Assembly (NCBI RefSeq): GCF_001577775.1
Contig: NZ_CP010835.1
Span: forward strand, 1,240,001 to 1,304,000
Source: Pyrococcus kukulkanii
GTDB lineage: Archaea; Methanobacteriota_B; Thermococci; Thermococcales; Thermococcaceae
Direction: 5' to 3'
DNA: 64,000 nucleotides
The translations under genes and the position numbers were made by a program. The notes under the pieces were generated by a model. The model was not told the origin of the DNA. It worked only from the letters and a program-made list of their open reading frames with translations, and searched no databases. Positions within the stretch are counted from its first letter, which is position 1, and each line of letters starts with the position of its first letter. Shown here one piece after another: positions 2,653-13,649 of the stretch.

Positions 2653-2726
2653 GGGGCGGTAGCTCAGCCTGGGAGAGCACCGGACTGAAGATCCGGGTGT
2701 CGGGGGTTCAAATCCCCCCCGCCCCA
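2653..2726 (+). tRNA. tRNA-Phe (GAA)
   Basis: The acceptor strands GGGGCGG and CCGCCCC pair. The anticodon loop CTGAAGA between CCGGA and TCCGG gives anticodon GAA. The T arm is GGGGG-TTCAAAT-CCCCC. The discriminator is A and the CCA tail is encoded (2727-2729). No intron is seen. It lies 8 bases before tRNA-Gly and is probably co-transcribed with it. Confidence 0.97.
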
Positions 2727-3053
2727 CCACTGTTTGTGCGGTGGTAGTCTAGCCTGGTCTAGGACGCCGGCCTTCCGAGCCGGCGACCCGGGTTCAAATC
2801 CCGGCCACCGCACCATTCTTCTCTCCTTTTCAAGAACAGAGCCCAGAGCAGGCCCCTTTTTGGGAGAAAAGTCAGAAAGGGGTAGATTTTCATGAGAAAT
2901 ACTATCGGGCATGTCGAGCTGGGCGAGAAAATATTCTACAGCTAAATTCACGAACTGGCTGATAGTGTATCCTCTCGCTTGGATGGCCTCCTTCAGGTCT
3001 TTTCTCAATACTATGTGCACTCGGTCAAAACGAGTGGGTTTTGAGTGGGCCAT
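2664..3053 (-). CDS. intN: integrase N-terminal fragment (intN), ribbon-helix-helix
   Basis: Residues 1-79 come from the element: a ribbon-helix-helix fold (about 8-46, RVHIVLRKDLKEAIQARGYT then a helix ISQFVNLAVEYFLAQL) and a linker. The frame then runs through the attachment repeat (MVRWPGFEPGSPARKAG) and on, meaninglessly, antisense to tRNA-Gly and tRNA-Phe until a stop. In the excised circle these 79 residues join intC in frame, giving an integrase of about 390 residues. This splitting is the hallmark of SSV1-type (suicidal) integrases. A GGTGG ribosome site precedes the ATG at 3053. The RHH part may also bind the palindrome at 3087-3108. Confidence 0.85.
   Translation of the reverse strand: MAHSKPTRFDRVHIVLRKDLKEAIQARGYTISQFVNLAVEYFLAQLDMPDSISHENLPLSDFSPKKGPALGSVLEKERRMVRWPGFEPGSPARKAGVLDQARLPPHKQWWGGGDLNPRHPDLQSGALPG
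2738..2812 (+). tRNA. tRNA-Gly (TCC), integration site of the element
   Basis: The acceptor GCGGTGG pairs with CCACCGC. The anticodon stem CCGGC/GCCGG encloses CTTCCGA, giving anticodon TCC. The T arm is CCGGG-TTCAAAT-CCCGG, and CCA is encoded at 2813-2815. The gene stays complete because the element carries a copy of its 3' half; the second copy of that half lies at 10860-10916. Bases 2766-2822 are the left attachment repeat. Confidence 0.97.
2766..2822 (+). repeat. attL: 57-bp direct repeat, left copy
   Basis: From the anticodon stem of tRNA-Gly to 7 bases past its CCA, identical base for base to 10860-10916 and differing on both sides. It is the crossover region of a tRNA-targeting integrase. 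On the minus strand it encodes the integrase residues MVRWPGFEPGSPARKAG. Confidence 0.95.
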
Positions 3054-3086
3054 TGTGGACCACCTTCATAAGGTCGGCGGCCTCAA

Positions 3087-3108
3087 TATATCAATATTGT
3101 GATATATG
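3087..3108 (-). promoter_or_regulatory. palindrome in the integrase promoter
   Basis: Perfect inverted repeat ATATATCA - 6 bases - TGATATAT, 34 bases upstream of the intN ATG, over the AT-rich stretch where the TATA box must be. Ribbon-helix-helix proteins commonly bind such sites, so autoregulation by the integrase's own N-terminal domain is plausible; that is inference. Confidence 0.5.
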
Positions 3109-3712
3109 GACCTGGGCCGGGAACACAATGTTGTTCCCCCGCCGCCCTCTTCTATGCTTTGAAGATCTTTTCTCGTGTGGTCCCGGGTGCCCACCCGAGG
3201 TGACCCATATGAACACAATGTGTTTCCAGCTACGTGGACGAGATGCAAGCTCGAAAACACATTGTAGTTCCTGGGGAACTTCTTGTGTTTCCCAGGGAGA
3301 GCCACACCGAGTGGCTGGTCGCTACCCAGATTTGGGTAATAGTGCTGGAAGGTGGACATGGTATCCCGGAGGCAGGGCTTTTCTGCGGAGAAAAGTCTGC
3401 ACAGATTTGAGTAGTAGTGCACGCTTACATGCATGAAATTTTCTTCACATGAAAAGCGGGCCCGAGAGAGCCTTTTCTGGGGTTCTACTGTAGAACAAAC
3501 CAGGGCCGAGAAATTTTTGCTGAAGAATTTGGGGCCCGCTTGAGGAAAAAAACTCAATCCAAGCCCTTGCTAGGGCTGGGAGAATTTTCTCCGTGCACGA
3601 AAAGGGCAGAATTGCTTGGAGTTTGCCTGTCGAGGGCGAGCTAGTCAAAACGAGGGCGGAGGTTGTTGGAGTTGGTGGTAAGTTATCGTGAAAAAGTTAG
3701 AAAAGCAGGGGG
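3109..3712. other. no convincing gene; G+C-rich, repeat-bearing stretch
   Basis: Open frames here have no protein-like composition and no ribosome sites. Short related words (AACACAATGT, AAACACATTGT) occur several times in both orientations between 3119 and 3290, next to the integrase promoter. They may be protein-binding sites; nothing further is supported. Confidence 0.4.
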
Positions 3713-3913
3713 TCACAGGTCTCGTATCCTCCTGTATCGGCCCGAGGGCCGGAACTTGATACTAGTATCGACGGGATATGTTGCCACCTTCCAGAGGGCT
3801 TTCTTTGGGTTGGAGACTAATTCCTCATCGAACCTGTCGAGCCTCTCCAAGAGTTCCTCTCCTCTGCCTGCTAATTTTGCAATAAGTCCTAACAACCCGG
3901 CCACTTTCATCAC
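3713..3913 (-). CDS. possible small element protein (about 62-66 aa)
   Basis: The product is helical and charged (LLGLIAKLAGRGEELLERL then DRFDEELVSNPKKALWKV). A strong GGGGGTG ribosome site sits at the start, where GTG, ATG and a third GTG (3904) compete; the last has the best spacing. An AT-rich GTATAAC lies about 20 bases further upstream as a possible TATA box. The ribosome site and start region are repeated in decayed form at about 4010-4045, where a stop follows after five codons. I do not recognise a family. Composition and signals favour a real gene, but its size keeps confidence low. Confidence 0.45.
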   Translation of the reverse strand: MMKVAGLLGLIAKLAGRGEELLERLDRFDEELVSNPKKALWKVATYPVDTSIKFRPSGRYRRIRDL

Positions 3914-5087
3914 CCCCTTCGAGCCACCGTGTTATACTACGTGGTTTGGAAGAATAAATCCTGGGACCGGAGCAATCCTTATATATCACCTAATAGGAGT
4001 ATGTTATGACCCGGCCACCATCACCCCCTTCGGGCCCACCGCTCCTTACTTCTCCCTCTCCGCCCCCTCGTTTTGGCCCAGCCCCAGGAATTGAGCTGGG
4101 TCAAAGTGAGGTGGGAGGGTTTCGAGCAACTTGTTTGCTCGGTTTGTCGAGGGAAATCGAGCTGGAGAGATATTCTTTCGGGCTCGGAGAAGTTTGCTCG
4201 AAGGTTCGCTATGGTTGCGAACTTTCGAACAAGACCATATCGAGGAGATTTAGTATCAAAGCGGGGCGGGGAGATTTAGAGCCCAGAGCGGGCTTGCGAC
4301 TCTTCGAGCAAGACTTCTCCTTGCTTTATTTGTCAAGTAAAGCCTTTGGGGAGGAGTAATAGAGGCAGGAGATTGCCTGCGACGCTTCGAGCAAGACTTC
4401 TCAACGGATTATTTTGCCTAAAAAGCCCTCAGCAGGAAGTAATGGAGGCACGAGAAGTCTTGCGACTCTTCGAGCAAAGCATCTTATGACTTCTTTGGGT
4501 CGTAAGGAGCTGTTAGAGGGGACTTTGTTTGCTCGAAGGTTCGCAAAAGGGGGCCGAAAAAATACCCCCTTTTTATTGCGAATCTTCGAACATAGTTTTC
4601 CGGCCCGATTTTTTGAAAAAATCCTCTCAAAGGGATTGTTCGAAGGTGCGTGAGGGCTTGCGACTCTTCGAGCAAGACCTCTCGTGCTTTCTTTCGGGTC
4701 TTCGAGCAAACCTCTGAGGGCTTCGAACAAACCCTAAGGGTCAGGCCCTCGCACTATACCCTCGTTCCAATCCTGGGGCCTTGAGGTTGGTGGGTTCGGT
4801 CCCACATATACACCTTATTATGATTAGTAAGAGGGCCGGCCCCAGGATGTGTGGGCTGGGGGTGCACTTGGGTGTGGGTTGGCTCGGGCCCTGTATAGGG
4901 GCCGTATTCGGCACCATGCATAAATACCCTTACCTCAACACTTTGCTCGAAGGCTGGTCTCCGAGCGGGGGGTTGGTGTAAGGGGAGGTTCTGGAGGGTT
5001 AGGGGCGTAAGTGGTGTTCTGGGGATGGGTTGGTGTTGGTTGTTAGCCTTGGGTCTAGGTAAGGGGTTACTACTTGCAGGGGTAAGA

Positions 5088-5095
5088 TTTATACC
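5088..5095 (+). promoter_or_regulatory. TATA box of the element operon
   Basis: TTTATACC about 25 bases before a start predicted near 5118, inside the 22-bp palindrome at 5101-5122. This is the only good promoter ahead of the four-gene operon. Confidence 0.55.
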
Positions 5096-5100
5096 ACCTT

Positions 5101-5122
5101 GCTTCGAGCATATGCTCGAAGC
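5101..5122 (+). promoter_or_regulatory. 22-bp perfect palindrome, operator of the element operon
   Basis: GCTTCGAGCAT followed by its exact reverse complement, between the TATA box and the GGAGGTGAT ribosome site (from 5129) of the first gene. It is two face-to-face copies of the half-site that fills the region to the left. Its place at the transcription start suggests repression by an element-encoded protein, most simply the tandem winged-helix product just downstream. Confidence 0.75.
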
Positions 5123-5141
5123 AAACAGGAGGTGATGTAAG

Positions 5142-5723
5142 ATGCCCGAGGTCGAGGCCCAAACCCAAACTAAGATCGAGACCTCGAAGAGGAAAACCGA
5201 ATACGACCTCGAAGTAGTAGTCCCCCATAGGAAGCTAGTCCTTGCAGGGAGTTTGCTTGCTAAGGCGATGCCTCCCGTCGCAGTATTATCACCCGAGGAC
5301 GTGGAGGAGATGGCAAGGAAGATGAAGAGGACTTCAAGGACGGTCTTGGCCGCTCTGAGGTATTCTGGCCTCGTTTTGCTCCTCAGGAAGGATGGGAAGA
5401 AGCACTGGATATATCTCAAAGGTATGGACGTGGACACGATGAAGCGTGTGCTCTCGAAGAAGGCCAAGAGCTTGAACCCCTGGGCGAAGAAAGTTCTCGA
5501 GTATTCTCAGGAGGAAATCCACAGGATGGCCGAGGAGAAGGGTGTCAGCGTGAGGAAACTCCTCGCCAACCTCAAGGAAGACTATCTTGTAATCCGTCTC
5601 AAATACCCTCGAGAGATCAAGTATGTCATCTTCAAGGGCGTCAAGCTCTCGGAGGCCCTCAAGGCTCTAGAAGAGTTCACGAGAGTGCTCAATGGTCAGC
5701 CCCCAGAGGAGGTGAAAAACTAA
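5142..5723 (+). CDS. tandem winged-helix protein, candidate initiator/regulator
   Basis: 193 residues with an internal duplication: residues 49-95 and 121-167 align without gaps, sharing the pattern S.E...MA.......R..LA.L....LV..L followed by ..KG. Each unit reads as helix-helix-wing, that is, two winged-helix-like domains. The N-terminal 20 residues are charged and probably disordered. The gene is first in its operon, has a strong GGAGGTGAT ribosome site, and lies 20 bases after a perfect palindrome of the half-site repeated through 4121-5122. Two winged helices are also the architecture of bacterial iteron-binding Rep proteins. Binding of these repeats by this protein is inference; I recognise no named family. 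Confidence 0.7.
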   Translation: MPEVEAQTQTKIETSKRKTEYDLEVVVPHRKLVLAGSLLAKAMPPVAVLSPEDVEEMARKMKRTSRTVLAALRYSGLVLLLRKDGKKHWIYLKGMDVDTMKRVLSKKAKSLNPWAKKVLEYSQEEIHRMAEEKGVSVRKLLANLKEDYLVIRLKYPREIKYVIFKGVKLSEALKALEEFTRVLNGQPPEEVKN

Positions 5724-5756
5724 AGCTAAGAGCACGGCCCGGGGAGGTGATCCAAG

Positions 5757-7223
5757 ATGGTGTTCTCAAGTGCTCAAATAAAGCTTGCGGCTCGGGCCCT
5801 CAAGGACTTGGCCGGCAAGCACGAGTTTGTGATTGTTGTCCCTGGGGACAGGCCGGGCCTGCAGGTTATGAGGGAGCACTCCGAGGAGGAGGTTGAGGAA
5901 ATAATCAAACAGGCCCTCCGGCAGGCCCAGGACCCGAGCAAGATATTTGTCTTCCACGACGATGAAATTGGCTGGGAGAAAGTGAATCTTGTTGAGCTCA
6001 TTGGCGGGGCAGGTAGCATATATGATGTATCAGGAGACATGAGACAGTCCGAGAACGAGGCCGAGGCCAAGCCCGAGGTTGAGGCTGGGGTCAAAACTGT
6101 TCCTGGGGCCGGGCCTGGGGGAGAACCTGAGGTCGAGGATGTCGAACTAGAGAAATCACTCGGGCCCGATGCTGGAGAGGTTAGTGAGGAGGAGATAAAA
6201 GTTGAGGGTGAGATTGGGGTTGTTAGTGAGGTTGGAGAAGTTCCTGGGGCTGGAGAGGTTGAGGGGGAGACTAGCGAAAGTGGTGAGAATGGCGGGAGTG
6301 AGGTCAAATCAGAGGGTGAAATGGTCATCGAGCTCGGGAAAACGAAGCTCACTAGGACTCACGTTGATTATGCTGAATACGACGTGAGCAGTTACGTTGT
6401 GAGCCTCCTCGCTCTGGTGGTGCACCGGGTTGCAAATGCTAAACAGGTAGTCTATGTAGAGGATATTGCGGCTACCATCAGCTACATCCTTAGTGTTGAG
6501 TATGGCATCGAGGACGATGCCCTCATCAGATTTTACATCAAGAAAGTGCTTGAACGGCTTAGGGACTTTGGCTGGGGCGTTGCCGAGCCCCAAACGACGG
6601 GGGACGTTGATGAAGATATCGTGAAGGAGTTCAAGGTTCTTGCAAGGGAGTGGGGCAAGACACTCACCGAGGCCGTGAAAGTGCTGTCGAGGAGGCCTTT
6701 TGAGTTTCTATTAGCAGACCAGATCTTCAGGCCGGGCAGGACTGACATCAAGCGTGAGGGTAACATGCTCGTCGTCTCTGAGAAGTTTATTCAGGACATA
6801 GAAACAGCCACGGGCTTGAAGCTCGACCCGGATGAGTTCTCCATTGTGCTCAAATACAAGCTCACCACAGCTCAGGGCGATGAAATGACTCTTTACGAGG
6901 CTGTCGCTGAGTTGAGAAAGGCCCTCATACAGTATAGGATTTACGAGGGAGTTCCACCAGAGACAGTTGCCCTTTCAAAACTTATGACTTATGGAGGGCC
7001 CTGGCTGAGGAAAGCTTTGAAGGTGCTTGAAGCCAAGAAGCTCCTGAGAGTTTCAAAAGGAAAGGCAAGGTTCACAGAGGAGCTTGTCGAGATGCTCGAT
7101 CTACCCCAGCAGGTCAGTCTATTCGATAATCTCGAGCAGGTCGTAGAGAAGAAGGCGGCATCGAAAGCATCCCTTGCAGACCTTGCTAGGGAGGAGGACG
7201 AGGAAGGGGGTGAGGAGCAATGA
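5757..7223 (+). CDS. unknown 488-aa element protein with acidic linker
   Basis: Three parts are visible. Residues 1-90 form a compact alpha/beta domain (KHEFVIVVPGDRPG, then a helix EEEVEEIIKQALRQA). Residues 91-188 are a low-complexity Glu/Gly/Val/Pro linker. Residues 190-488 are mostly helical with two to three possible winged-helix units (for example YGGPWLRKALKVLEAKKLLRVSKG near 405-428). The tail is acidic. The gene has a GGAGGTGAT ribosome site and overlaps the next gene by 4 bases. Its place beside a helicase and an origin-like region suggests a replication accessory or DNA-binding scaffold, but no catalytic motif is visible. Confidence 0.65.
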   Translation: MVFSSAQIKLAARALKDLAGKHEFVIVVPGDRPGLQVMREHSEEEVEEIIKQALRQAQDPSKIFVFHDDEIGWEKVNLVELIGGAGSIYDVSGDMRQSENEAEAKPEVEAGVKTVPGAGPGGEPEVEDVELEKSLGPDAGEVSEEEIKVEGEIGVVSEVGEVPGAGEVEGETSESGENGGSEVKSEGEMVIELGKTKLTRTHVDYAEYDVSSYVVSLLALVVHRVANAKQVVYVEDIAATISYILSVEYGIEDDALIRFYIKKVLERLRDFGWGVAEPQTTGDVDEDIVKEFKVLAREWGKTLTEAVKVLSRRPFEFLLADQIFRPGRTDIKREGNMLVVSEKFIQDIETATGLKLDPDEFSIVLKYKLTTAQGDEMTLYEAVAELRKALIQYRIYEGVPPETVALSKLMTYGGPWLRKALKVLEAKKLLRVSKGKARFTEELVEMLDLPQQVSLFDNLEQVVEKKAASKASLADLAREEDEEGGEEQ

Positions 7224-7735
7224 AAGTCATTGATGACGTGAACGCTCTCAAGAAGGCCCTCACGGCCCTCCTACTCAAATACTACCCTCAAGGCCGGGTC
7301 GAGGTTGAAACAAGAGTCGCAGCGGTGGCGAAGCACTTGCAGGACGCTGGCTTCGAGCTCCTCGACAATAATACCAGTAATGTAATATACAGACTGAGGA
7401 GCCGCCCCCTCATCGAAGACCCTACCTCGGTAGAAATTGCAATCAGCCTGCTTGAGGGCGGGTTTGTTGATAGGATATGGGTCGAAGTCCCCATTGTGAG
7501 GCCTAGGTGGAATGTGCTGCATGTGGGTGAGGACGAGGGGATTTTCACTAGGAAAGTGGCGATGAAGGCATCGAGGGCTGGAACCGTTGTGAGGGTTGAA
7601 ATACTACCAAAAAGCACGATTGGCGTCGTCCTAGGAGAGCTCGTTGTTGATACGGCAATCTTTCCACGCCGCCAAGTTACCCTCGAAACAGTCCTCTCAA
7701 TCTACTTGAAGCCGGAGGTGGTGCAGGATGCCTGA
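7220..7735 (+). CDS. unknown 171-aa element protein
   Basis: A soluble alpha/beta protein without recognised motifs: an N-terminal helical part (INDVN-like ALKKALTALLLKY), then several beta segments. It overlaps its upstream neighbour by 4 bases (ATGA) and the helicase gene by 8, with a GGTG ribosome site, so its synthesis is coupled to both. Strict co-expression suggests it acts with the helicase, perhaps as a loader or partner; that is inference from position only. Confidence 0.6.
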   Translation: MKVIDDVNALKKALTALLLKYYPQGRVEVETRVAAVAKHLQDAGFELLDNNTSNVIYRLRSRPLIEDPTSVEIAISLLEGGFVDRIWVEVPIVRPRWNVLHVGEDEGIFTRKVAMKASRAGTVVRVEILPKSTIGVVLGELVVDTAIFPRRQVTLETVLSIYLKPEVVQDA

Positions 7736-9284
7736 GTTCCTGAAAAAGCTAATCGGGCCCCCGGGGACAGGGAAAACCCGCTGGATAATGACCCAAATCC
7801 TCGGCCTTCACGAGGGCAAGAAAAAGGTGTTAGAAGAATACGGGCTGGAGGGGGCGCTCTGGGGCGAGGAGCTTGCATTCGCCACGCTTGAAAACTCGGC
7901 CTTGAGAGAGCTCCTCGGCAGGATAGGCTATGAGGACAGGGCTGGCTGGATGAGGACTGTGGACGGGATAGTTATTCGTGCATTAGCGATTGCGGGGAGG
8001 GTCGAGAACCCTCCCAACCCTCTCATCTTTGAAAGTGTGCTCTTGAAGGTGGCGAGGCGGTTTAGACTAAACTTGGAGCTGGTCAAGGAACGCATCAACA
8101 ATTTCACCTATTTGATAAACAACTTGAGGGTCGAAGAGGCAAAGGAATACGCTCAAAGCGACCTCATTGTTGGGGAATGGCTAAAATTGCTGGCTGAGAA
8201 GGGTGTAAAACCCTTTGAGTTGTATAAGCTCGATCTCCTCAATGATGTGGAGGCGGTCAGGGATGAGATAGTGCACGCCAAGACACCTCACCTGCTACCC
8301 AAGCTCATGTTTGTAGACGAGGCGCAGGATCTTAGCAGGCTCGACTGGCTCGTTTTGACGAGGCTGTTCGCTGAGAGCAAGTTTGTCATCGTCGGAGACG
8401 ACCTGCAGGCGATTTTCTCCTTCAGAGGGGCTGACTACAGGGTTTTCGAGAGCATCAAGGCCGGGCGGGTCGAAGTGCTTGACAAGTCCTATCGCCTGCC
8501 CCAAGATATTATCGATGTCGCCAAGGCATATATCAAGCGGATGGTAGGGAAATACTATGACTTCAGAGCGGTGGATGAGAGCAAGCAGGCTGAGTTCTAC
8601 ATCCTACCCCCTAACCAGGCCCTCAGGTTCGCAATCGAGCTGGCACGCAAGGGGTTCAGCGTGCAGATACTCACAAGGACTTCTAAGACTGCTTCGGAGC
8701 TAAGACTGTTACTTTGGAGTGCGGGGATATTTGCTGATGACTTGGCGGGCTCGGTGCTGGAGAAGGTCGAGCGGTTCAGAGAGCTCCTTAGGCTCCTCGC
8801 CGTGGCCCGGAAGAAAAAGGCGTTCACTGAAGAACAGGAGAAGAAGTTCCAGAAGCTGGCGTGGGAGTTTCTAAGACCTGACGCCCGTCAAAGAGTAAAC
8901 GAAATCTTCAAGCAACCGGCCTTACTTAGGCAGGGGAGGCTCGACCAACTCCTCGACCTCAAGAACGATGACGTTTGGCCTGACGTATTGGTCGCCTACT
9001 TGGCCTACAAGCAGACACCGCTGAAGCTCTACGTGGACACGATGCATGCGGCGAAAGGGACAGAGAGCGACTACACTGTGATCTGGGGTGATTTCCACAG
9101 AAGAGCCCCTGACCCCGGGGAAGAGGCAAGGGTGGTCTATGTGGCGATCACTCGTGCCAGAAAGGGCATCATCATAGACAATATCATGAACCCCTACCTA
9201 ATCCCCCTGCTCGATATCCTCAATGAGAAGGTGGACGTGAAGACCCAGCCGGCCCGGCCTGTGGAGGCCGAGGCCTCGCCCTGA
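7728..9284 (+). CDS. UvrD/Rep-like superfamily 1 DNA helicase
   Basis: ATP-driven DNA strand separation, presumably for element replication. The 518-residue protein has Walker A GPPGTGKT (10-17), Walker B FVDEAQD (about 195-201), motif III VGDDLQAIFSFRG (about 220-232), motif IV-like LDKSYRLPQ, motif V TMHAAKGTESD (about 437-447) and motif VI VYVAITRARKG (about 470-480). It is shorter than bacterial UvrD and keeps only small inserts. Last gene of the operon. Plasmids of the pTN2 type in Thermococcales also carry an SF1 helicase, but their primase-polymerase is missing here. Confidence 0.92.
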   Translation: MPEFLKKLIGPPGTGKTRWIMTQILGLHEGKKKVLEEYGLEGALWGEELAFATLENSALRELLGRIGYEDRAGWMRTVDGIVIRALAIAGRVENPPNPLIFESVLLKVARRFRLNLELVKERINNFTYLINNLRVEEAKEYAQSDLIVGEWLKLLAEKGVKPFELYKLDLLNDVEAVRDEIVHAKTPHLLPKLMFVDEAQDLSRLDWLVLTRLFAESKFVIVGDDLQAIFSFRGADYRVFESIKAGRVEVLDKSYRLPQDIIDVAKAYIKRMVGKYYDFRAVDESKQAEFYILPPNQALRFAIELARKGFSVQILTRTSKTASELRLLLWSAGIFADDLAGSVLEKVERFRELLRLLAVARKKKAFTEEQEKKFQKLAWEFLRPDARQRVNEIFKQPALLRQGRLDQLLDLKNDDVWPDVLVAYLAYKQTPLKLYVDTMHAAKGTESDYTVIWGDFHRRAPDPGEEARVVYVAITRARKGIIIDNIMNPYLIPLLDILNEKVDVKTQPARPVEAEASP

Positions 9285-9974
9285 CCTTTCCCTTTTCATA
9301 ATCATAAACAGGTATATATGGGCCGGCCTGGTGTGAGCAATACTTCGGGGGTATAGTTTTTGTGGTCTTGGGACTGAAGAAGTTCCAGCCCTGCCTTGAC
9401 TTTTGTCAAAAAGAGAGCAGGCCTAAGGGAGCTTCTCTTGCTGAAGCGAGCCCTCTCGGGAGACTTTCCGGGCCCAGGATATGACACGTATCATATCATG
9501 AGGCCAACTTTGTTATCCCCCGGCCAGGCCTCGGGTCTATACAATACTACATATGTGGAATATATGAAGGGCCCAAGCTGGTGATACATTGTCCCCTGGG
9601 GACAAGAACTTGCTATCGGCCCCTCTCTTTGGGCTTGCTACTGATAACAGGTCTTGTTATTTTTGCCCCTGCCTCATGCAGGGGCGGGCCTGCACGGGAA
9701 ATCATCCTTGATAGGCAGAAGGGCCAGCCCCAGGGACAAGATATTGTTGCCAGAAAAATGAAAAAGGAAAAAACAGCGAGGCAAATCAGCCGGCTTTCTA
9801 TCTCGACTACCACGATTGCACCACCGAAATGAACTACTACTTATAGTGGTAATAAAACTGGCCCTGGGGTTAGTTCTCGGCGAACTTGTAATACCAAGCC
9901 CTGACGAGGGTATTATCCTCCCACACGAGTATTATCAGCTACCCCTTGACTTCCACCACTACCACCTCCTGGGA
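9285..9974. other. element noncoding stretch with doubtful small ORF
   Basis: No recognisable gene. A 66-codon minus-strand frame (9613-9813) starts at a GTG with GGTGGTG upstream and has a hydrophobic N-terminus, but its remainder is not protein-like. Short inverted and direct repeats occur: ATATGA/TCATAT at about 9479-9496, and GTATTAT words near 9910-9935. The stretch separates the helicase operon from intC, which ends at 9975. Confidence 0.35.
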
Positions 9975-10910
9975 TCATGGTAGATGGGAATAAACCTCAC
10001 CCTTGAGCCAGCTCAAATACTCCTTCATGGTCTCGAGGGAGAGCGTGAAGAGGTTCAGGTAGTGTCTCGCAAGGATAGAACGTGCAGTCCGGCCCTGCAC
10101 GTAATCTATGACCTCAGGAGATACCCCCAGCCGAGCTAGATACGTTGCTTGGGTCTTCCTCAGCTTGTGCCACTTTATCCCGTGCTCTCTCGAATACTTC
10201 TCCAGCACGACAGTCGAAACATAAGGCTTTGACCTTATGAAGTAGTCAGCCGTCTCCTTGAGGCAAAAACAGTAGAAAGCCCGCTTGGTCTTGTTATCCT
10301 TCTGTAGCACTACCCACGAGACTTCGCCCTCGGTCTGATACTTCTTTTTATGGAGCATGCTGACGGCAAGGGCGAGCTCGCTCCTCCTCAGCCCGCTCTC
10401 TATTCCGAGCCTGATAAGGTAGTATAATCTCTCATCCCGCCTCCTGAACTTCCTGAGTAATCTTGTAAGTTCCTCAGGAGTGTAAAACTCGACGAGCCCT
10501 CCGCCCTCGCTTTGGGACGGCACCTTGACAGTAGATAGCCAAAACTCGGTCTCTTCTGGCAGTAGAAGATTTCTTTCTGCCAGAAATCGCACGAAGACCC
10601 TCAAGGCCTTGGCTTGGTTCTTGGACTTGAATTCTCTAAGCTCGCCGAGGGCGAGCTTAGTTATCACATTGCAATATATGTTGTAAGTCTTCTTGGAGGA
10701 GAGCTGGCCCGCCAAATACTTGCAAAAGTCTTCTATTTGAGTTTGGGCCAGCCATACTAGCCGCTTATAGAGATAGCACCGGACGCCTTTGTTTTGCGAG
10801 TAGTCCTCCCCCCGGCTTTCTTTTGCTGTTTGGGGCGGTAGTCTGCTCCTATTTGCCCAGCCGGCCTTCCGAGCCGGCGACCCGGGTTCAAATCCCGGCC
10901 ACCGCACCAT
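9975..10910 (-). CDS. intC: integrase C-terminal fragment (intC), tyrosine recombinase
   Basis: The catalytic part of an SSV1-type integrase. Residues 1-17 (MVRWPGFEPGSPARKAG) are encoded by the attachment repeat and also appear in intN. A core-binding helical domain follows (about 45-110), then the catalytic domain with Arg175/176 (SGLRRSEL), a likely Lys near 204-208, the HKLR box (His258, Arg261) and the nucleophile Tyr294 in ARHYLNL. The active-site set looks complete. In the integrated state it has lost its promoter and N-terminal 79 residues, so it is probably not made. Excision would then need integrase from elsewhere. Confidence 0.92.
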   Translation of the reverse strand: MVRWPGFEPGSPARKAGWANRSRLPPQTAKESRGEDYSQNKGVRCYLYKRLVWLAQTQIEDFCKYLAGQLSSKKTYNIYCNVITKLALGELREFKSKNQAKALRVFVRFLAERNLLLPEETEFWLSTVKVPSQSEGGGLVEFYTPEELTRLLRKFRRRDERLYYLIRLGIESGLRRSELALAVSMLHKKKYQTEGEVSWVVLQKDNKTKRAFYCFCLKETADYFIRSKPYVSTVVLEKYSREHGIKWHKLRKTQATYLARLGVSPEVIDYVQGRTARSILARHYLNLFTLSLETMKEYLSWLKGEVYSHLP

Positions 10911-10916
10911 TCTTCT
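10860..10916 (+). repeat. attR: 57-bp direct repeat, right copy
   Basis: Exact copy of 2766-2822 (tRNA-Gly 3' half plus 7 bases past CCA). Upstream of it the element sequence only loosely resembles the tRNA 5' half, so no second functional tRNA is formed. Chromosomal DNA resumes at 10917. Confidence 0.95.
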
Positions 10917-11395
10917 AAAAATTTTAGAAACTCTTCCTAGAGTAGCTGTTTTTCTTAGATTCCCTGATCCTTCCTCAGATTTGTTAATCCTCTACTCTTT
11001 GGTCTTTGGAGGGTTTTAGTAATATGTTGTGAAAATATCACTAAATGTTCAAATTTTGGTCATATTATGTAACGAATTTTCTTCAAATTTACCTGTTAAA
11101 TCAGTAGATATCTTGGTTATATACTGACGCACGATGTATTCTGAGTTTTTGGCATAATGAAATGTGAAATGGAGGCAGCATATAAGAGAGGGCCTCAGAA
11201 CCTTTTGGAGTTTGTGGGGGTTGTCCAACTGTTGGATATTTTGGGGCTGTATCTCCTTTATACATTGAATTACAAGGTTTGTAGCCCGAGCTTAGATTTG
11301 CCTTATTGAGTAGGATAAATACCCTTCATCGAAAGGCTTATAATATTGGAGCTTTCTTAGGGAATATTGGGAGAATTGCACGAAAAATTGTGCCT
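10917..11395 (+). promoter_or_regulatory. CRISPR leader
   Basis: 479 bases of AT-rich DNA without genes directly before the first repeat. The intact side of the array and the degenerate last repeat at the far end show that this is the leader side. A TATA-like CTTATAATATTG lies at about 11337-11348, which would start pre-crRNA near 11372. GCAC...GTGC just before the first repeat can form a small hairpin. Because the element inserted at tRNA-Gly, this leader originally followed the tRNA directly. Confidence 0.75.
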
Positions 11396-13649
11396 GTTCC
11401 AATAAGACTAAAAGAGAATTGAAAGACAAGAACATAGAAGCTGTAGCGCGGTTTGGCCAAGGTTCCAATAAGACTAAAAGAGAATTGAAAGCCCGTGCTC
11501 AGGGCCCTGGGCGTGGAGGACGTGAAGGTTCCAATAAGACTAAAAGAGAATTGAAAGCATCGACGATTCTGAGGACTAACGCTATCGTTACCGCGTTCCA
11601 ATAAGACTAAAAGAGAATTGAAAGATCATGGCTAAAGTTGCCTTTTAGCTCGGGGATTAGTGTTCCAATAAGACTAAAAGAGAATTGAAAGAGGGCATTA
11701 TTGGTACCGCACCGACAAGATCCAGTTCAGTTCCAATAAGACTAAAAGAGAATTGAAAGGTGTTGGTTCTGACAAGTCCAGTTGAGTCAAAACGCGTTCC
11801 AATAAGACTAAAAGAGAATTGAAAGGTGGGTTCCTGACCACATCCTCTGGGTCAAAACCCCAGTTCCAATAAGACTAAAAGAGAATTGAAAGTTAGTCGT
11901 GTCCACCGAGTCGGGAGCGTAGAAGAGGAGTTCCAATAAGACTAAAAGAGAATTGAAAGACGCTCAACGTGTTCTGCTTCACCCTGATACTTTGCAAGTT
12001 CCAATAAGACTAAAAGAGAATTGAAAGACACCTTCTTCATCTCGGCATCGCTCATTCTCCTCGCGAGTTCCAATAAGACTAAAAGAGAATTGAAAGAGAC
12101 TCTTTCCAGCCAGTTGTGAATCCCTTCTCGAAGGTTCCAATAAGACTAAAAGAGAATTGAAAGGGATTTCCCCGACCCGGGGTCCCCTGTCAGGGTAATT
12201 GTTCCAATAAGACTAAAAGAGAATTGAAAGTCTTCAGCTCCAACGGAGTTATAGGCTCTGAATCGTAGGTTCCAATAAGACTAAAAGAGAATTGAAAGAT
12301 GGATAGATTGCCCAAATGGGTGTAATAGTGTTGTAAGAACGAGTTCCAATAAGACTAAAAGAGAATTGAAAGGGTGCAGCACTACTTCAAGAAGATGTTT
12401 CCCGCTCCTGGTTCCAATAAGACTAAAAGAGAATTGAAAGTTATCATGCATCTCAAAGCAAATCCAGAAATGTGGAGAGTTCCAATAAGACTAAAAGAGA
12501 ATTGAAAGTCTTGTTCTAGCTCTCTTAGCACTTCATAGAGCTTCGTTCCAATAAGACTAAAAGAGAATTGAAAGGTGGTTTTACTGGCAAATAGTGGTTC
12601 CTTGGCCACTGTTCCAATAAGACTAAAAGAGAATTGAAAGACCAGACTGCGGGATTTAGGACGGCAACAATACCAGGTTCCAATAAGACTAAAAGAGAAT
12701 TGAAAGTCATATAAGGGTTGGGTGTTGAGGATGTCAAGGATGTGTTCCAATAAGACTAAAAGAGAATTGAAAGCGTCGCGGGGTCAGAAAGGGCTTTTAG
12801 CGAGGGCTTGCGGTTCCAATAAGACTAAAAGAGAATTGAAAGACCTATCAAGAACACGCCTCATCTCCTCCGCCTCCCCGTTCCAATAAGACTAAAAGAG
12901 AATTGAAAGTCACGAGCTTTCTATCTCCCTGCGTCGTAATGTCTCGTGTTCCAATAAGACTAAAAGAGAATTGAAAGAGAGGCTCTTCCTGCAAGTGGTC
13001 CTTCCCTCAGTATGTTCCAATAAGACTAAAAGAGAATTGAAAGACGTATCCCCACACCTCGCCGGCAATCGCTTCTATAGGTTCCAATAAGACTAAAAGA
13101 GAATTGAAAGTGTCAAAAATCACCTGGCCCTCCGTCACGGCTTCCTCGTTCCAATAAGACTAAAAGAGAATTGAAAGAGGGTTCGTAGTGGCCGAACTGT
13201 GCCATTCTGTCGAGTTCCAATAAGACTAAAAGAGAATTGAAAGTATATGGACAAAACGGTCTTAACAGAAAACAATATAAGGGTTCCAATAAGACTAAAA
13301 GAGAATTGAAAGGAGGGCAAGGAGTACACCATAGAGTCCCGCAACCTCACGTTCCAATAAGACTAAAAGAGAATTGAAAGCTCTTGTCATACCAGATGCC
13401 GTTTGCTGGGTCAATTGGTTCCAATAAGACTAAAAGAGAATTGAAAGAGAATCTTCTTCGCCTGCATTTCCTCCAGGACTTTGTTGGTGGCGTTCCAATA
13501 AGACTAAAAGAGAATTGAAAGCAAGAAAAACTACGATACCATAACGGACGATGAGTTGTTCCAATAAGACTAAAAGAGAATTGAAAGATAACTGCACATG
13601 ATACAAAACCTATAACAAAGCCAGGTTCCAATAAGACTAAAAGAGAATT
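11396..13649 (+). CRISPR. CRISPR array, 34 repeats / 33 spacers
   Basis: A 30-base repeat starting GTTCCAATAAGACTAAAAGA and ending GAATTGAAAG occurs 33 times in full from 11396; the 34th (13625-13649) loses its last bases, marking the distal end. Spacers are mostly 35-39 bases, with two of 44 (12299-12342 and 13448-13491). The repeat end ATTGAAAG is the 8-base crRNA 5' tag known from P. furiosus, giving transcription to the right. No cas genes lie in the window, so processing depends on Cas6 and effectors encoded elsewhere. Many spacers read as open protein-coding fragments in one frame. Confidence 0.98.

Follow-up and report, generated by a model that had tools for sequence, protein, structure and literature searches.

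A probable small plasmid integrated into tRNA-Gly(TCC) of Pyrococcus kukulkanii NCB100 by an SSV1-type tyrosine integrase

Organization of the locus

Pyrococcus kukulkanii, which its 2017 description calls the most heat-loving member of the Thermococcales, carries in strain NCB100 an integrated element that is inserted in the gene for tRNA-Gly(TCC) and lies within the 64,000-bp stretch analysed here (contig NZ_CP010835.1, positions 1,240,001 to 1,304,000; denoted the window). Two identical 57-bp repeats, the attachment site (att) copies, are found at 2766–2822 and 10860–10916 with a spacing of 8,094 bp, and the peptide RRMVRWPGFEPGSPARKAG is read on the minus strand from both. A first-pass annotation of this DNA had described identical repeats with a shared frame, which is exact; its peptide plus two residues gives RRMVRWPGFEPGSPARKAG. 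The GC content is 52.2% in the element and 45.6% in the remaining window. The features of the locus, in window coordinates, are as follows.

2738–2815, plus strand: tRNA-Gly(TCC), the attB target, left whole by the left att copy (ARAGORN, Rfam)
2766–2822: left att copy, 57 bp, from the anticodon arm to the tRNA-Gly 3′ end plus 7 bp
2766–3053, minus strand: int(N), with a weak ribbon-helix-helix (RHH)-like N-terminus, reading into att; the open frame continues to 2664 (129 residues)
3088–3105: inverted repeat upstream of int(N), 6-bp arms with 6 bp between
4193–4952: iteron-like array, nine copies of TTTGCTCGAAG with at most 1 mismatch, in both orientations; candidate origin
5099–5124: perfect 26-bp palindrome formed by two additional iteron cores and located 17 bp before the start of the operon
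5142–5723, plus strand: 193-residue protein with predicted winged-helix repeats (AlphaFold, predicted local distance difference test (pLDDT) score 63.8); candidate iteron-binding initiator/repressor
5757–7223, plus strand: 488-residue putative replication protein; residues 209–314 are related to the downstream part of a sister element's primase protein
7220–7735, plus strand: 171-residue protein; best match phrog_32517 (unknown function), E = 0.0041 over 51 residues
7728–9284, plus strand: 518-residue UvrD/Rep-like superfamily 1 (SF1) helicase with conserved motifs (PF00580, E = 1.1e-13; phrog_1967, E = 3.2e-41)
9975–10910, minus strand: int(C), core-binding and catalytic domains, 311-residue frame with its ATG inside att (PF16795, SSV1 integrase structures)
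10860–10916: right att copy, identical to the left

The right att copy is recognizable as a tRNA remnant (Rfam, 38.9 bits, 10835–10906). Eight other genomes of the genus were matched, and in five of them the tRNA-Phe/tRNA-Gly locus was compared with the two flanks joined at one att copy. The anticipated empty tRNA-Gly site was seen by alignment in three of these five (G010, G009 and G005): the alignments run through att to joined-flank position 3302, which is the first CRISPR repeat, and contain small gaps only (identical bases 664/699 from position 2601 in both G010 and G009, and 615/694 from 2605 in G005). Element DNA was absent from all five compared stretches at E ≤ 0.001. Of site-specific recombination at the tRNA gene, the empty sites document the product alone.

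The integrase

Closing the element into a circle in silico yielded one frame that stays open for 394 codons between stops, or 390 residues counted from the first ATG, which bears out the earlier proposal that int(N) and int(C) fuse in the circle to a 390-residue enzyme. The integrase is of type I, with attP within the int gene and int(N) and int(C) at opposite ends of the element. The Phage_integr_3 domain (PF16795) is found in int(C) with E = 1.5e-20 (74.1 bits against a cut-off of 27), and int(C) also matches SSV1 integrase structures (E = 2e-15). As had been suggested, the gene is split on integration in the manner of SSV1.

The active-site set of such integrases is R..K..HxxR..Y. This set is present here, with motifs that align with those of the SSV1 enzyme, which has a lysine where the P. 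kukulkanii enzyme has the histidine. The residues concerned are R175/R176, H248, R251 and Y284 in the 311-residue int(C), equivalent to R254/R255, H327, R330 and Y363 of the fused protein. Arg175/176 had been named correctly from the sequence, but the numbers first given for the other three (His258, Arg261 and Tyr294) are too high by 10, as positions 258, 261 and 294 are occupied by Leu, Leu and Thr. Full integrases indeed align with the joined int(N)-att-int(C) product: end to end for the reconstituted integrase of a sister element, element A of genome G010 (142/372 columns identical; 17/68 over residues 1–79), and over nearly the full length for the intact SSV1 integrase (96/323 identical). 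The corresponding values are 94/330 for a TGV2-type integrase and 86/332 for the integrase of PkuNCB100_IP1, a member of the pT26-2 family.

Two integrase trees were calculated, the first with 33 rows (2 partial rows having been dropped beforehand) and the second with 23 rows, of which 20 were from the earlier set and 3 were new. In both, the integrase falls into a supported (starred) clade with two G010 elements, and lies outside the group with IP1; support for the deepest forks is weak in either tree, and the 33-row tree carries a long-branch warning for the window/G010 clade.

The RHH fold assigned to int(N) by the first-pass annotation is plausible but not statistically significant. We found no Pfam match to it in int(N), and a profile of five int(N) pieces gave nine matches in the PDB, among them CopG (E = 0.056) and CcdA (E = 0.17), with dihydrofolate reductase at the top (E = 0.052). 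An RHH-like N-terminus may be common among such enzymes, the pattern of the IP1 int(N) being similar by eye. Production of int(C) could start from the ATG inside att. Collectively, the sequence data support the assignment of the enzyme as an SSV1-type (type I, 'suicidal') tyrosine integrase.

PF16795 was found at two places in the P. kukulkanii genome, namely in the present element and at 456,471–457,205; the latter fits the position published for PkuNCB100_IP1, 456,321–486,708 (PMC6972569, available text). As int is split at both places, no intact SSV1-type integrase able to excise the element was found in its own genome. For TKV4 and SSV2, the available text of PMC8371274 reports excision brought about in trans by a related enzyme.

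Operon and candidate origin

Four close or overlapping plus-strand genes make up the operon. In the model of the first product, the 193-residue protein, winged-helix matches cover residues about 30–95, the first repeat, with a best Z of 4.3; a comparison made with VIA-align tests mainly residues 29–94. Upstream of this gene, TTTGCTCGAAG occurs 11 times with at most 1 mismatch at 4193–5121 and 3 times in the rest of the 64 kb; 1.45 occurrences are expected in the whole window. The arrangement resembles an iteron origin whose initiator regulates its own expression. The inverted repeat at 3088–3105 could be an operator of int(N).

A search of 94 genomes from the order gave matches to the 488-residue protein at E ≤ 0.001 in three, namely its own genome, G010 (1.7e-18, residues 200–316) and, weakly, G001 (1.7e-4). 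The G010 match is part of a second sister element, element B, where it lies downstream of the primase part (39% identity over 107 residues). No match was found among 72,556 plasmid records at E ≤ 0.1, or at E ≤ 0.01 among 103 frames of seven pTN2/pEXT9a-like plasmids. A profile built from the AEP parts of four elements recognized the prim-pol proteins of pIRI48, pTN2, pP12-1 and pCIR10 (52.1, 48.5, 36.9 and 36.0 bits, respectively) and scored the 488-residue protein at −0.4 bits, so that no primase domain was detected; it also picked out no replicase of pEXT9a, pAMT7 or pMETVU01. The model of the protein (mean pLDDT 48.9) looks, at low confidence, like an N-terminal domain followed by a linker.

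The 171-residue protein showed no significant relative in the Pfam and PHROGs scans or in the comparison with related elements. The helicase, in contrast, is found at E ≤ 0.001 in 13 of the 94 genomes, its own included, and the best match in another genome is from G010. Identity to the helicase of element A is about 38–39%, and in a tree of 19 helicases the pairing of these two is fully supported, apart from the pTN2, pEXT9a, pIRI48 and TGV2 rows; deeper forks are weak. Identity to the helicases of all seven compared plasmids (pTN2, pEXT9a, pIRI48 and others) is 25.5–30.5%. In agreement with the earlier view of the element, none of its proteins is close to one of a named plasmid in the collection searched. 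A scan of a viral collection with the helicase reported 344 relatives; of the 80 retained, 4 were placed in the tree, outside the clade of the window helicase. Distant matches also came from 22 phage records and from 4 loci in a scan of genome contigs.

Sister elements and other relatives

The two G010 elements of the integrase clade are as follows.

Element A, G010:C3 about 336.0–355.5 kb: 19,434 bp between att starts, in tRNA-Val(GAC)
Element B, G010:C3 about 228.4–237.9 kb: 9,532 bp between att starts, in tRNA-Ile(GAT)

Both share with the window element a split int gene interrupted by att in a tRNA gene, and their int(C) parts are 42–47% (A) and 39–48% (B) identical to that of the window element. 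The operon of A is similarly ordered, with a small winged helix-turn-helix (wHTH)-like protein, a replication protein, a small protein and an SF1 helicase. The first small proteins, of 128 residues in A and 133 in B, resemble one another (E = 9e-8). That of B weakly resembles the 193-residue protein (E = 0.005); that of A was matched at E = 0.002 in the genome search with the 193-residue protein, yet gave no match in direct comparison.

Element A differs from the window element in a 688-residue protein with a primase-type (AEP) domain and in its Hma-like genes. AEP-like motifs are present in the 688-residue protein, and it was matched to the prim-pol proteins of pIRI48, pP12-1, pTN2 and pCIR10; Pfam gives a LigD-type match that falls short of the cut-off (E = 0.0015). 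Relatives of HmaA, HmaB and HmaC were identified with PADLOC at E = 4.5e-195, 3.5e-152 and 5.7e-132. Element B (L085:7852–17536) differs in being decayed: int(C) has an in-frame TGA, the primase is spread over two frames, and only remnants of the helicase are seen, together with a methyltransferase-like gene. The suggestion that the window element may represent a distinct small family accordingly holds for the supported integrase clade with the two G010 elements and for the helicase, which pairs with one of them; it does not hold for size and content, as small elements without cargo are not the whole of the lineage, which includes element A, 19.4 kb long with Hma-like defence genes.

A further group is represented by a 20,332-bp element of G018 in tRNA-Arg with an AEP-helicase pair, which we take to be TGV2 of Thermococcus gammatolerans. 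Like the window element, the TGV2 type has a type I integrase with a short N-terminus (33% identity over 243 residues), a tRNA target and an SF1 helicase after the replication protein. It differs in its size of about 20.3 kb (G018), an AEP-type primase, Hma-like genes and a helicase from another clade. TGV2-like elements are also present in G022, G036 and G067, and in G059 as judged from search matches only; the target is tRNA-Arg in G018, G022 and G036 (CCG in all three), and an HmaC-like gene lies in the examined G022 stretch. The G018 proteins are 80–87% identical to the three Hma-like proteins of element A.

SSV1 and pSSVi resemble the window element in their type I integrase with att inside the gene (annotated in SSV1), in the Phage_integr_3 domain and in a PGFEPG-like peptide encoded by att, and are unlike it in an integrase identity of about 30% and in unrelated hosts and replicons. 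The pTN2/pEXT9a-like plasmids have in common with it an SF1 UvrD/Rep-like helicase preceded by a modular replication protein, whereas no integrase was found in the feature tables of the seven records, and the prim-pol and/or pTN2-type C-terminal replicase domain of these plasmids was not found in the 488-residue protein. As far as described in the available part of PMC3543421, pEXT9a-like replicases contain no prim-pol domain, their N-terminal domain being a different one, with a wHTH at the C-terminus. They provide a precedent for the arrangement of the 488-residue protein, though the sequences do not match.

Regarding the pTN3 family, its major capsid protein and packaging ATPase were not matched among the seven frames of the element scanned against Pfam and PHROGs, although a diverged protein could be missed in this way. 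Its integrase was represented by an SSV1-type enzyme of G023, which we take to be that of TKV4 in T. kodakarensis in part on the basis of the four PF16795 places in that genome; the match extends over 18 residues at E = 0.02, and this enzyme forms a separate long branch.

An int(N) without an element (L079:14557–14850; G000:C1 about 926,556–926,850) lies at a tRNA-Val/tRNA-Ala pair in the P. kukulkanii genome, the site that holds element A in the sister genome. Its first 53 residues are 64% identical to the int(N) of the window element. An ATGA overlap joins its start codon to the end of a chloride-channel-like gene, so that it may be co-translated.

Origin and fate of the element

The element is very probably a small plasmid that was integrated in tRNA-Gly(TCC) by its SSV1-type 'suicidal' tyrosine integrase, presumably a formerly replicating circle that is now trapped. 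The combination of helicase and modular replicase, as in Thermococcales plasmids, supports the plasmid part of this reading. As the sequence shows, attP is inside int in the circular form, and integration has left the tRNA gene whole, with int(N) beside it and int(C) at the far end. The circle may have been replicated from the iteron region at about 4.1–5.1 kb, where the 193-residue winged-helix protein would bind the iterons and repress its own promoter via the palindrome. Replication would involve the 193-, 488- and 171-residue proteins and the helicase, with primase and polymerase provided by the host. The element would be trapped because the only two PF16795 integrases found in its own genome are both split, and its escape would need a related integrase in trans.

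Several points weigh against this interpretation. Neither a circular copy nor expression nor recombination was seen, and replication is deduced only from the kind of genes present. The alignments of two of the five compared genomes, G008 and G004, end at or just past the tRNA end. The models of the 193- and 488-residue proteins are single-sequence predictions of low confidence; RepE54 and other iteron-Rep proteins, the top Foldseek rows for the 193-residue protein, were rejected as insignificant (E ≥ 0.03, template modelling score < 0.2). Elements A and B have scattered repeats only, with no array as clear as that of the window element. Finally, about 65% of the element lies within recognized genes. 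This low coding density also speaks for an alternative in which the element is what is left of something larger, either virus-like or a 20-kb plasmid, whose cargo and primase domain were lost after integration; it would now persist as a decaying, non-replicating island. Consistent with such a course, the G010 sisters measure 9.5 and 19.4 kb between att copies and carry primase-type proteins, one of them being plainly decayed, and integrated plasmids of the pT26-2 family are reported in the available text of PMC6972569 to be prone to losing the ability to replicate. However, the four operon genes are open and closely packed, the helicase motifs are intact, the att copies are identical and int is restored without a stop. 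The 488-residue protein moreover seems, in its low-confidence model, to carry an N-terminal domain and a linker, not a ragged truncation. We therefore regard decay from a larger element as unlikely.

That the element is a satellite or of viral origin, dependent on a helper virus for its spread, is very unlikely. pSSVi, a 5.7-kb Saccharolobus plasmid with an SSV-type integrase, is the better of the two plasmid matches of the joined integrase, but no capsid, packaging or structural gene was detected in the seven scanned frames, and viral contigs scanned with the 488-residue protein and int(C) gave no relative. Membership of the pT26-2 family, as a form without cargo, is extremely improbable. That family is present in several Pyrococcus genomes and shares the tRNA-integration scheme, the integrase class, an att length close to ours (reported mean 58 bp, in the available text of PMC6972569) and a distant likeness between the IP1 integrase and that of the window element. 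Against it, the two trees, within the limits given above, place the window integrase outside the pT26-2 clade, and the element has an SF1 helicase where the available part of Table 3 of PMC6972569 lists members with MCM, a t26-22p-like protein or no replication protein.

The trapped-plasmid interpretation can be carried further, to a speculative version that we hold to be quite unlikely as a whole: that the element is the minimal, primase-free form of a third Thermococcales lineage with suicidal integrases. The AEP domain would have been replaced by an unrelated N-terminal domain and an acidic linker, the tandem winged-helix protein would start replication at the iterons and recruit the host primase, and leftover int(N) halves, such as the solo int(N), would be expressed as RHH regulators.

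Neither the integrase type nor the modular replicon is novel, but the lineage and the minimal form without a primase appear to be. A literature search covering titles and the beginnings of abstracts, with Badel et al. 2020 outside its scope, returned no description of the element, which is not a claim of its absence from print. The element is a compact, apparently complete member of an integrase-splitting lineage outside the pT26-2 and pTN3 families; this lineage is little studied, and its relatives carry a DNA-primer-making part that the window element seems to be without. The four operon genes and the candidate origin offer a convenient minimal replicon for the study of plasmid replication without a prim-pol domain. 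In combination with its sisters and the isolated int(N), the element could also show how halves are exchanged between split integrases and how their tRNA targets change.

Neighbouring and minor features

A CRISPR array (window 10917–13600) lies on one side of the element and tRNA-Gly on the other; at least three related genomes that lack the element have the array at the equivalent position. Self-targeting was considered and rejected, all 32 spacers of the neighbouring array being at least 14 mismatches from the element.

A frame of 65–66 residues with a plausible ribosome-binding site (3713–3913, minus strand) is present in the otherwise empty left region and had no match among the compared elements and plasmids. 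A second minus-strand frame, 3066–3557, was rejected as a gene because its match in element A contains stops, which indicates conserved noncoding DNA. Short noncoding blocks upstream of int(N) (window 3106–3530) are conserved 3′ of the helicase in element A (L031 about 9521–9992), and A has a further pair of related blocks, one adjoining those just named and one upstream of its int(N).

Related integrase-splitting elements in both Pyrococcus and Thermococcus carry as cargo Hma-like defence genes (SNF2 helicase, DUF1156 methylase and DUF499 ATPase), at the following positions.

L031:2156–4918, L031:6578–9250 and L081:3372–6683; L082:6057–16878

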